From NCBI GenBank assembly GCA_944380305.1, contig CALWHF010000009.1, positions 1-64,000 on the forward strand: 64,000 nucleotides of DNA, written 5' to 3'. Position 1 is the first letter of the stretch. Each line of letters begins with the position of its first letter. The stretch comes from an uncultured Christensenellaceae bacterium (lineage in GTDB: Bacteria; Bacillota; Clostridia; Christensenellales; UBA3700). Below, in pieces: positions 34,562 to 40,751 of the stretch. The notes below the pieces were generated by a model. That model made no database searches and had not been told where the DNA came from. It was given only the letters and a program-made list of their open reading frames with translations. The position numbers and the translations under genes are program-made.

Positions 34562-35956
34562 TCAGCCCCTCACTCCTTCGTTCTGAGGAATATCGGGAAG
34601 GCTTGCAAATCCCGCTTTGAGATCCGCATCCGTCGGGATAAAGTCGCTCATCGTCTTGTCGTTGTACGCCTTATACGCGCTCATATCGAAGTAACCCGTG
34701 CCGGTCAGACCGAAGAGTATCTTCTTGTGCTCGCCAGTCTCCTTGCACTTCAGGGCCTCGTCAACCGCGACTCTTATCGCGTGAGAGGATTCGGGAGCAG
34801 GCAGGATACCTTCGCATCTCGCGAACATCTCCGCGGTTTCGAAAACCTTGGTCTGTTCGACGCTTCTCGCAGTCATGTATCCGTCGTGATAGAGTTTGGA
34901 AAGTATCGGGCTCATGCCGTGATACCTGAGACCGCCCGCGTGATTGGGAGACGGCAGAAATCCGCTGCCGAGCGTATACATTCTCGCCATCGGCGTGGTT
35001 TTACCCGTGTCGCAGAAGTCGTATGCGTAAACGCCTCTCGTCAGAGACGGACAGCTCGCAGGCTCGACCGCGATGAACTCTATATTGTTCTTTCCCTCGA
35101 GTTTATCTGCCATGAACGGAGCTATCAGACCCGCAAGGTTGGAGCCGCCGCCCGCGCAACCGATGACTATATCGGGGGTAACGCCGTATTTGTCGAGAGC
35201 CGCTTTCGCCTCGAGACCTATCACGCTCTGGTGCATTGCGACGTGATCGAGCACGCTGCCGAGAACGTATCTGCAATTGGGAGTTGAAGTCGCGACCTCG
35301 ATCGCTTCCGAAATCGCGCATCCCAGCGAACCGCCCGTATTGGGATGCTCTTTGAGAATGGCTCTGCCGACCTTCGTCGTTTCGGACGGAGACGGAATGA
35401 CCTGCGCGCCGTAGGTGCGCATGACCTCTTTGCGGTACGGCTTCTGTTCGCTGGACACCTTGACCATATAGACCTTGAGATCCAGCCCGTAGAACGCGCA
35501 CGCCATCGAAAGAGCCGTGCCCCATTGTCCCGCACCCGTTTCGGTGGTAAGCGAGGTTATGCCTTGCTGTTTCGCGTAATACGCCTGCGCGACCGCGCTG
35601 TTCAGCTTGTGCGAACCCGAAGTGTTGTTGCCCTCGAACTTGTAATAGATTTCAGCGGGCGTTCCGAGAGCTTTTTCAAGCTCGTAAGCCCTGACGAGCG
35701 GCGCAGGTCTGTACATCTTGTAGAAATCGCGGATACCTTCGGGTATCTCGATATACTTATCCGTGCAGTTCAGTTCCTGGTCTATGACCTCGTCGCAGAA
35801 TACGGGTCGAAGGTCGTCCTTCGTGCAGGGTTTCAGCGTTACGGGATTGAGGAACGGATCGTGCTGTTCCTTCATGAACGCCTTGAGGTTGAGCCATTTC
35901 TTGGGGATCTCCTCCTCGGGCAGATATATTTTATAAGGTATTTTATCGTTTTTCAT
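34562..35956 (-). CDS. trpB: TrpB2-type tryptophan synthase beta-like protein (464 aa)
   Basis: This PLP enzyme should form tryptophan from indole and serine. PLP Lys lies in NNTSGSHKLNSA, the phosphate-binding loop is GCAGGGSNLAG, and ETGAGQWGTALSMA is the catalytic Glu region. The extra N-terminal segment (YKIYLPEEEIPKKWLNLKAF) and the length of 464 aa mark the TrpB2 subgroup, which usually works without TrpA as an indole-salvage enzyme. No trpA or other trp gene is adjacent. The ATG at 35956 is preceded by caggagaac. Regulation appears elaborate: a palindrome-covered promoter, a leader ORF with a Trp codon, and a hairpin plus T-run (see 36026-36200). Confidence 0.93.
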   Translation of the reverse strand: MKNDKIPYKIYLPEEEIPKKWLNLKAFMKEQHDPFLNPVTLKPCTKDDLRPVFCDEVIDQELNCTDKYIEIPEGIRDFYKMYRPAPLVRAYELEKALGTPAEIYYKFEGNNTSGSHKLNSAVAQAYYAKQQGITSLTTETGAGQWGTALSMACAFYGLDLKVYMVKVSSEQKPYRKEVMRTYGAQVIPSPSETTKVGRAILKEHPNTGGSLGCAISEAIEVATSTPNCRYVLGSVLDHVAMHQSVIGLEAKAALDKYGVTPDIVIGCAGGGSNLAGLIAPFMADKLEGKNNIEFIAVEPASCPSLTRGVYAYDFCDTGKTTPMARMYTLGSGFLPSPNHAGGLRYHGMSPILSKLYHDGYMTARSVEQTKVFETAEMFARCEGILPAPESSHAIRVAVDEALKCKETGEHKKILFGLTGTGYFDMSAYKAYNDKTMSDFIPTDADLKAGFASLPDIPQNEGVRG

Positions 35957-36025: not shown

Positions 36026-36054
36026 AAAAAAATCGTTCAACGCATAGTCAAACG
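36026..36054 (-). terminator. Putative attenuator hairpin upstream of trpB2
   Basis: Minus strand CGTTTGA (36054-36048), loop ctatgcg, TTGAACG (36040-36034), A, then seven T (36032-36026). The stem has seven pairs with two G-U, so it is weak. It starts 2 nt after the stop codon of the leader ORF at 36057-36098. Confidence 0.55.
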
Positions 36055-36056
36055 AA

Positions 36057-36098
36057 TTACAACCGCGAACGCCATCGCGTAAAATATGCCGAATTCAT
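36057..36098 (-). CDS. Putative leader peptide of trpB2, MNSAYFTRWRSRL (13 aa)
   Basis: This 13-codon frame has a very good ribosome site (ggaggagat, 8 nt before ATG, counted from ggagg) and stops just before the attenuator-like hairpin. Codon 9 is TGG (Trp), with Tyr and Phe at 5 and 6. Within it, CGCGA (codons 7-8) can pair with TCGCG (codons 11-12), and CGTTC (codons 10-11) can pair with GAACG of the terminator 3' arm. Ribosome stalling at Trp9 could therefore choose between terminator and antiterminator. There is only one Trp codon, which is fewer than in classical trp leaders. The call is inference from layout. Confidence 0.55.
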   Translation of the reverse strand: MNSAYFTRWRSRL

Positions 36099-36163
36099 AG
36101 CTATCTCCTCCGTCTGATCTGATCTTGTCTCAACCAGCGCAACCACTAGGATGCACTCGGTTT

Positions 36164-36200
36164 ATGTAATTATATTACATTAACGAGACGCGTATGTCAA
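36164..36200 (-). promoter_or_regulatory. trpB2 promoter overlapped by a 17-bp palindromic operator
   Basis: Minus strand TTGACA (36200-36195), 17 bp, TAATAT (36177-36172). The palindrome ATGTAAT-TAT-ATTACAT covers 36164-36180, exactly over the -10 box and the start site, as for a repressor operator. The repressor is unknown. Confidence 0.65.
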
Positions 36201-38869: not shown

Positions 38870-39720
38870 TTGTCTGTCCTCCTTAACAATTTGTCGGTCT
38901 GTTCTCTGAGACCGTACCAGACGATATTAGTTATAACGCCTTCGTATGCCTTGAGTCTGACGCCGTCAAAGGCGTTCATGATCTCGCGGTAACTGCTGTT
39001 GAGCACGAAAGCGGCGTCTTTGCCTTTATCTTTTACGAACGTCTCTCTGTCTTTGTATTCGTACCCCGCCAGAAAGACGTTGAATTCGCCTTTTTTAGCG
39101 TCCTCGTCTGCGTCGTCGAACGCGTCGGCGAAATAGACCCACCTGCCGAGATTGTACATCAGATCGCCCGCGGCGTCACTGTAATCTTCACCCGCGAGCA
39201 GTCTCGTCAGCTCCTTCAGGATAGTAGCGAATTGGTGCGCTATCAGATCTTCGTTCTCGCAACGCTCTCCCTCCAGTCTGTTCAGCTCGTCGAAACCTTT
39301 TTTTATTATCTCCGCGGCTTCGGGATAACGCCTGCATGCCTTTTTGTAATGTCTTTTTATCACGAGCGCGTCGGCTAGTTTTTTCCCTGCGCTCTTGTCG
39401 TCGTTTACATCGTCGACCGCCTTATAGTGAGCGAGTATCGTGTTGACGTCGACTATCTTTTCCATAAGCGGATTGCGCTTTACGACGGATTTTTTCCTGA
39501 CGGGATTGAGTATGCAGACCTCGTTGCCTATCTCTATCGCCGTGCCCGTGAGCGCGTGCACGAATACGCTGAGGAAGGTAACGTCGTAATTCGTGGTCAA
39601 CCTCATCGCCTGCCCGCAACGCTTGCCTATGCACTTGCACAGCCCGCAGTAAAATGCGCGGTACAGCGTGAAGTCCTTGATGAACATATTTGGTTTGTCG
39701 GGAACGACGTATCCGAACAT
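38845..39720 (-). CDS. DUF5685 family protein (291 aa)
   Basis: The protein opens with MFGYVVPDKPNMFIKDFTLYRAFYCGLCKCIGKRCG, where four Cys in the pattern C-x2-C-x-C-x4-C could bind a metal or Fe-S cluster; this start is the mark of DUF5685. The rest is helical and soluble. The biochemical role is unknown. Its ATG overlaps the trpS stop (TAATG), and its end overlaps the J-like gene, so trpS, DUF5685 and J-like protein are translated as a unit. Confidence 0.88.
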   Translation of the reverse strand: MFGYVVPDKPNMFIKDFTLYRAFYCGLCKCIGKRCGQAMRLTTNYDVTFLSVFVHALTGTAIEIGNEVCILNPVRKKSVVKRNPLMEKIVDVNTILAHYKAVDDVNDDKSAGKKLADALVIKRHYKKACRRYPEAAEIIKKGFDELNRLEGERCENEDLIAHQFATILKELTRLLAGEDYSDAAGDLMYNLGRWVYFADAFDDADEDAKKGEFNVFLAGYEYKDRETFVKDKGKDAAFVLNSSYREIMNAFDGVRLKAYEGVITNIVWYGLREQTDKLLRRTDKCKQRTRI

Positions 39721-40718
39721 TACAACACGAATCCTATCTTTTCTTTTACTTCTCCGAGCGTTTTTTCCGCTATCGCGGACGCTCTCTCCGCCCCGTTCTT
39801 CGCGACTTCCGAGAGGTACGACTCGTCGCTTCTTATCTCGTTGAAACGCTCGCGGAAAGGCCTCAGCATCTCTACTACGGCATCGGCGGTCGCGAGTTTC
39901 AGGTGCCCGTACATCTTGCCATCGAATTCTTTGACGAGGCTGTCCATATCCTGCTTTCTCGCAATGGAGAGGATCGTCAGAAGGTTGGAAACGCCTGGCT
40001 TGTTCTCGGGATCGTAGACGATCTCTGAACCGCTGTCGGTGACTGCCTTCTTTATTTTGGAAATTATGTCCTTTTCGCTGTCGAGCACGCCTATCACCGC
40101 ATTGGGGTTGGGATCGGACTTGCTCATCTTGGCGAGCGGGTTCTGAAGGCTAGCTATCTTCGCACCGAACTTTCTGACCCTCGCCTCGGGCACCACGAAT
40201 GTGTCGCCGTATATATTGTTGAACCTGAGCGCGATGTCTCTCGCGATCTCGAGGTGCTGACGCTGATCTATGCCGACGGGCACGCAGTCAGTCTTGAAAA
40301 GCAGTATGTCCGCCGCCATCAGCACGGGATAATCCATAAGTCCCATATTGATGTTGTCCGCGTGCTTTTCCGACTTCTCCTTGAACTGCGTCATCCTGTT
40401 CATCTCACCGACGTAGGTGTAGCAGTTGAGCAGCCACGACAGCTCGCAATGTTCGTGAACGTGCGATTGATAATATACTATATTCTTCTTGTCGTCGATA
40501 CCCGCCGCAAGAAGAAGCGCGAGCATATCGAGCGAGTTTTTGCGAAAAACCGCGGGATCCTGTCTCACCGTGATCGTATGCAGATCCGCCACCTCGAACA
40601 GACAGAAGTTGCCCTCCTCGTTCTGTATCTCGCTCCATTCGTTTACAGCGCCGATATAGTTACCGAGCGTCATGATGCCCGTCGGTTGGATTCCGCTGTA
40701 AATGACCTTCTTTTTCAT
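39720..40718 (-). CDS. trpS: Tryptophanyl-tRNA synthetase (332 aa)
   Basis: This class Ic synthetase charges tRNA-Trp. The HIGH-type motif is PTGIMTLGNYIGA (about 10-22), and KMSKS appears as LAKMSKSDPN (about residue 200). 'GLMDYPVLMAADILLF' and 'PVGIDQRQHLEIARDIA' are typical. The ATG at 40718 follows aggggtaacga; the upstream ATG at 40775 would add 19 residues without support. No T-box is visible in the roughly 60-nt leader. It heads the operon with DUF5685 and others. Confidence 0.96.
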   Translation of the reverse strand: MKKKVIYSGIQPTGIMTLGNYIGAVNEWSEIQNEEGNFCLFEVADLHTITVRQDPAVFRKNSLDMLALLLAAGIDDKKNIVYYQSHVHEHCELSWLLNCYTYVGEMNRMTQFKEKSEKHADNINMGLMDYPVLMAADILLFKTDCVPVGIDQRQHLEIARDIALRFNNIYGDTFVVPEARVRKFGAKIASLQNPLAKMSKSDPNPNAVIGVLDSEKDIISKIKKAVTDSGSEIVYDPENKPGVSNLLTILSIARKQDMDSLVKEFDGKMYGHLKLATADAVVEMLRPFRERFNEIRSDESYLSEVAKNGAERASAIAEKTLGEVKEKIGFVL

Positions 40719-40751
40719 TTCGTTACCCCTGTAAATAATGATATTTGCATT

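Follow-up and report, generated by a model that had tools for sequence, protein, structure and literature searches.

Which tryptophan signal controls the stand-alone trpB2 gene of this uncultured Christensenellaceae bacterium, and how could a leader with one Trp codon convey it? Textbooks offer two RNA-based ways of sensing tryptophan, control by TRAP and attenuation through a leader peptide, and these are usually presented as alternatives, each used by different bacteria. In the window (the whole 64,000-nucleotide stretch of DNA analysed here), a sequence-only reading had pointed to a compact attenuation leader ahead of trpB2. The promoter, the 13-codon ORF with its ribosome site (SD), the Trp codon at position 9 and the seven-T terminator that it named are all present on the minus strand, as is the CGCGA:TCGCG hairpin inside the ORF (Table 1). 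The terminator stem begins 1–2 nt past the leader stop codon. An Rfam search of the window gave no match to the T-box (RF00230) or to any other family. The single-sequence fold of the leader is unremarkable in stability (z = −0.5), so the evidence for the leader is comparative, not energetic.

Table 1. Coordinates of trpB2 and of the elements of its leader in the window.
Feature	Position	Strand	Details
trpB2, stand-alone TrpB-like enzyme	34562..35956	-	NF009057, E = 1.2e-203; TIGR01415, E = 2e-176
Intrinsic terminator	36026..36055	-	stem 36055-36033; seven T 36032-36026
Leader ORF	36057..36098	-	MNSAYFTRWRSRL then stop, 13 codons; single Trp codon is codon 9, 36074-36072
Trp hairpin	36064..36079	-	CGCGA-TGGCGT-TCGCG, Trp codon inside the loop
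Ribosome site (SD) of leader ORF		-	GGAGGAGAT, ahead of ATG 36098
TRAP-site-like run	36101..36131	-	seven NAG triplets (GAGacAAGatCAGatCAGacgGAGGAGaTAG); overlaps leader SD
5' stem-loop with GA/T internal loop	36133..36161	-	covariation
Sigma-70 type promoter	36172..36200	-	TTGACA (36200-36195)-N17-TAATAT (36177-36172)

The trpB2 gene is found in all 13 genomes of the genus (g1) and is the sole TrpB match in its own genome. For trpA (PF00290) there was no match above the cut-off in any of the 13 genus members, nor in the genera g2, g5 and g4. With trpA absent from the genus, TrpB2 probably salvages indole, and it presumably makes tryptophan from scavenged indole and serine. The gene for tryptophanyl-tRNA synthetase, trpS, lies on the same strand (39720-40727) about 3.8 kb upstream of the leader, with three genes between; ahead of trpS in the window we saw neither a TRAP site nor a T-box.

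The sequence upstream of trpB2 is readable in 12 of the 13 genus members (the contig of G011 is cut), and an attenuation leader with a one-Trp mini-ORF and a terminator is kept in all 12, as the sequence-only reading would have it. Indeed, the full series of elements is kept in these 12 leaders and in G018, from a sister genus (g2). Covariance model R1 matched 12 of the 13 genus members (the contig of the 13th is cut) and one sister genus (E = 4e-16); in a search of 46 family and 396 order genomes its matches were strong only in g1 and g2, and weak in g5. The −35 motif TTGAC also lies upstream of the leader in relatives with readable upstream sequence. The leader peptide is MNSAYFTRWRSR, in some cases with a further Leu, in the subgroup g1a and M...FRW in g1b; Arg-Trp, the ribosome site and the terminator are constant between the two and the rest of the peptide changes. 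Within g1a, leader codons 4–9 are identical across 8 species; in the corresponding comparison of trpB2, only 17% of the degenerate codons with an invariant residue are identical and the longest identical run is 4 codons. One g1a variant (L005, peptide MNSAYFTRWRRGSILV) has a 1-nt deletion after the Trp codon that alters the frame and leaves the Trp hairpin in place, so part of the constraint acts on the RNA. Hairpins equivalent to the Trp hairpin occur in g2 and g5.

Alignment of the related leaders bore out the conservation of the Trp codon but not the expected covariation of the terminator: its six core pairs are all retained in 13 sequences, and the changes are one-sided, of G-U type only. 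The double compensatory changes are located in a 5' stem-loop that the sequence-only reading had missed, with both-side changes at 8 of its 10 pairs and 29 double-change cells; shuffles gave 9.4 such cells and slid controls no more than 7. Also missed was a chain of NAG triplets between this stem-loop and the ATG, which has a pitch of mostly 5 nt and crosses the SD (in one relative it reads GACAAGACAAGAAAAGAAAGGAGAAG). The NAG score of the leader in the window was equalled by none of 200 dinucleotide shuffles. TRAP recognises GAG or UAG triplets with 2–3 nt between them (PMC3913778, PMC4854314), and our yardstick for a TRAP-regulated leader was about 9–11 such triplets at 2–3 nt spacing. Set against the B. 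subtilis TRAP preference for 11 GAG/UAG triplets, the site in the window has seven, several of them having A or C in first place (in order, the triplets begin with G, A, C, C, G, G and T); spacers are mostly 2–3 nt, with one adjacent triplet pair and one 1-nt spacer as irregularities. The triplets overlap the SD of the leader ORF and do not overlap any antiterminator. Four AGs at 5-nt spacing gave 55 matches in the whole genome, compared to 99 for the reversed pattern, and none of them was convincing as a further TRAP site on inspection.

TRAP (MtrB) is encoded in the same genome on another contig: the protein matches PF02081 above the cut-off (E = 4e-32) and NF009724 just below its 117-bit cut-off (115.5 bits, E = 6e-34). 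The gene (G000:C19:1821-2015; L042, L070) is flanked by DNA polymerase III alpha-like and phosphofructokinase-like genes. TRAP is present in 12 of the 13 genus members and in G018; in the remaining member, G007, the leader is present and TRAP was not found in an assembly of 30 contigs that is 94% complete. The TRAPs of the genus carry Pro32 and Asn37 at two RNA-contact positions, numbered by the B. subtilis TRAP sequence, which was used for numbering alone. In the solved complex, Phe32 stacks on G3 of the triplet and Lys37 on G1 (PMC4854314). Where the genome's TRAP lacks Lys37, fewer triplets of the site begin with G or U (mean 0.46 versus 0.75, p = 0.003), a trend that we treat as a lead only, since the species are related, some sites were hand-picked and the g5 genomes run contrary to it. 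Pro32 and Asn37 could possibly match the A/C-rich first bases of the sites.

A census of the 396 order genomes found TRAP in 41 and trpB2 in 189. Among 106 trpB2 leaders, a NAG score of at least 3.0 was reached by 28 of the 30 in TRAP-positive genomes and by 4 of the 76 in TRAP-negative genomes–the latter being the leader of G007, one chain in upstream sequence that looks protein-coding, and two T-box leaders. The association is strong by Mann-Whitney (p = 6e-13) and Fisher tests (p = 3e-18, conservatively with 5 of 76), p-values that ignore shared ancestry, although the sites recur in many families. In seven genomes (G039, G040, G050, G055, G058, G077 and G094) the triplets sit right on the ribosome site of trpB2 itself, an arrangement seen in other families, so the link between TRAP and trpB2 is independent of the leader studied here; in G130, NAG triplets are found in the leader ahead of trpE. 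Four loci (L067 in G054, L180 in G091, L181 in G147 and L182 in G112) have their trpB2 triplets in two blocks around a conserved hairpin, ATGTTATT...AATAACAT, and for this reason the predicted site may be stem-bridged. At L186 (G096), ten NAG triplets about 120 nt ahead of trpB2 are followed by a terminator, with no Trp mini-ORF, an arrangement that looks like a classical TRAP attenuator on trpB2. Among the relatives examined first, no genome with a T-box on trpB2 had TRAP; Rfam confirmed T-boxes before trpB2 at 12 loci, in 9 cases under the gathering score but with E-values of about 1e-12 or better.

In all, 19 genomes from the families f1 and f19 carry the composite of NAG site, Trp mini-ORF and terminator (12 from g1, G018, three from g5 and three from f19), and TRAP was found in 18 of the 19. 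The f19 composites were found via trpB2 itself, not via R1. Composite peptides always have one Trp codon, which in most lies in Arg-Trp or Trp-Arg: the g5 peptides are MEILSKRWRHRMY (G016), MYNGYSWRV (G021) and MFNRFYWRN (G025), and the f19 peptides are MRKFSVFWRCF, MERLCLFWRCSGVAFFVF and MKYSVYWRCFFGIAF. In g5 (L151, L152 and L157), where trpA was not found, a leader of this type stands ahead of a TrpB1-type gene, so the association of the leader is with a lone TrpB, not with TrpB2 in particular.

Short ORFs with an SD that encode Arg-Trp or Trp-Arg were present in 24 of the 106 leaders, compared to 0.55 expected from shuffles and none on the reverse strand. Eight of the 24 are in TRAP-negative genomes, several of them downstream of a T-box, which indicates that the Trp peptide probably predates TRAP gating, or is at any rate independent of it. 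In six TRAP-negative genomes a T-box is followed by such a mini-ORF (MLTKRWR, MKNEESVFRWRK...) just ahead of trpB: at L021 (G049) the T-box was identified by Rfam, and at L160 (G045), L202 (G309), L215 (G183), L237 (G085) and L175 (G257) by eye. At L175 the Trp region pairs with sequence beside the ribosome site of trpB2, which suggests translational attenuation.

How the ribosome could affect the terminator depends on where it stands. It had been proposed that a ribosome stalled at Trp9 frees CGTTC to pair with GAACG in the terminator. That pairing exists in the window, but it is absent in g1b, g2 and g5 and is broken by the 1-nt deletion in L005. Furthermore, CGTTC immediately follows the Trp codon, so a ribosome stalled there, with its edge about 12–13 nt past the first A-site base, covers CGTTC instead of freeing it. 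By inspection of g1a, g2 and g5 we saw no classical 2:3 antiterminator pairing the Trp hairpin with the terminator. We estimated terminator energies with a ribosome in place, treating every base as far as 13 nt from the first A-site base as blocked. The f19 terminators start one nt into the Trp codon and are therefore lost when the ribosome stalls there (−10.0 to −13.7 becomes 0), and in g1b a Trp stall weakens the terminator (from −8.8..−14.5 to −0.5..−5.6). In g1a, including the leader in the window, the stem starts 19–21 nt past the Trp codon's first base; a Trp stall leaves the terminator intact (in the window the ribosome ends about 6 nt short of it), and little or nothing of it remains when the ribosome stands at the stop codon. 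The stop-codon ribosome also reaches the terminator in G016; in G021 and G025 (g5) and G018 (g2) the terminator is, by estimate, beyond a ribosome at either codon. For the leader in the window, the best reading of this model is that a ribosome at the leader end masks the terminator.

The best explanation of the whole, and one that we consider fairly likely, is a two-input tryptophan attenuator. Tryptophan-loaded TRAP would wrap the NAG triplets over the leader SD and block leader translation; with the leader untranslated, the terminator would form and trpB2 would be off. Shutdown by TRAP at high tryptophan fits the indole-salvage role of TrpB2. When free tryptophan is low, TRAP would release the RNA and a ribosome would load on the leader; on reaching its end, the ribosome would mask the 5' arm of the terminator and RNA polymerase would read into trpB2. 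The single, near-terminal Trp codon would tie the position of the ribosome to charged tRNA-Trp. At the Trp hairpin RNA polymerase may pause long enough for the ribosome to catch up, as it does at the 1:2 hairpin of the E. coli trp leader. As judged from sequence comparison, TRAP gating of leader translation is likely, and the TRAP site is probably the main tryptophan sensor of the leader. Counting against the explanation are the run of only seven triplets with its A and C first bases, the altered RNA contacts of the genus TRAPs, the missing TRAP match in G007, and the terminators that lie beyond a Trp stall in the window and beyond either ribosome position in G018, G021 and G025. A broader proposition, to which we incline with less assurance, is that TRAP here gates a Trp leader peptide, so that one short RNA, of a kind present in f1 and f19, reads free tryptophan and charged tRNA-Trp serially, and that the TRAP contacts (Pro32 and Asn37) shifted jointly with the site towards AAG/CAG.

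Ordinary attenuation of the E. coli trpL kind would sense charged tRNA-Trp alone, with the NAG repeats being a purine-rich ribosome loading site. It would account for the conserved Trp codon, SD and terminator, and for the Arg-Trp mini-ORFs in TRAP-negative genomes, but we think it unlikely because the NAG pitch follows the presence of TRAP across the 106 leaders, the antiterminator is not conserved, and a Trp stall in the leader in the window fails to reach the terminator. Since the triplets and the terminator do not overlap, TRAP could act on the terminator only via leader translation or on RNA polymerase directly. The latter course, with the leader ORF as a by-product, has a precedent in B. 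subtilis TRAP, which induces termination without the attenuator hairpin (PMC3913778); however, the ORF, SD and Trp codon survive a complete change of peptide in several lineages and Arg-Trp ORFs are far more frequent than chance, which leaves direct action distinctly improbable.

Given that most of the peptides have Arg-Trp or Trp-Arg, the peptide might instead arrest translation as a nascent chain in response to a small molecule, in which case Trp would matter as a residue and not as a codon. We find this very improbable, because the stop codon, the C-terminus and the residue after Trp all vary (the peptides end in W, WR, WRSR or WRCF) and the frame in L005 differs after Trp. A two-input attenuator remains our preferred reading.

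Each part of such an attenuator has a known counterpart. TRAP is known to act on the trp leader and, in trpG, trpP and ycbK, on the initiation region (PMC11255114). As in the last three, the site here has short-spaced NAG triplets in a translation initiation region, where bound TRAP would block the ribosome; in contrast to them, the ORF affected encodes a 13-codon Trp leader peptide and no enzyme or transporter, and its blockage should take effect at a transcription terminator. The leader shares with that of B. subtilis trpEDCFBA (PMC3913778) a (here putative) TRAP site and a terminator, with a 5' stem-loop before the triplets, but it has no antiterminator over the triplets and has a presumably translated ORF between site and terminator. 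With E. coli trpL it has in common a short, presumably translated leader ORF with a Trp codon ahead of an intrinsic terminator; it departs from trpL in that it contains a single Trp codon, lacks a conserved antiterminator, bears a putative TRAP site on the SD of the leader ORF and serves a lone trpB2. A tandem Trp leader is known from B. subtilis rtpA (anti-TRAP), where, according to the work of Chen and Yanofsky as cited in PMC11255114, a T-box is combined with a Trp leader peptide. By that account, the rtpA leader too checks tryptophan twice in succession, and a Trp leader peptide makes one of the checks, but there the T-box for uncharged tRNA comes first and the peptide controls translation, whereas here TRAP would come first, for free tryptophan, and the peptide faces a terminator. 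In open-access text we found no report of a TRAP-controlled leader peptide or of TRAP control of trpB2.

If TRAP does decide whether the Trp peptide is translated, both sensors are joined in about 150 nt, and a translational repressor has been turned into a transcriptional switch. The retention of TRAP where trpA was not found suggests that the lone trpB2 is its probable target. The order shows trpB2 with a T-box, with a T-box and an Arg-Trp peptide, with TRAP on the gene's own SD, and with TRAP on the SD of the peptide; such a range of related states lets one trace how regulators are exchanged on a single gene.
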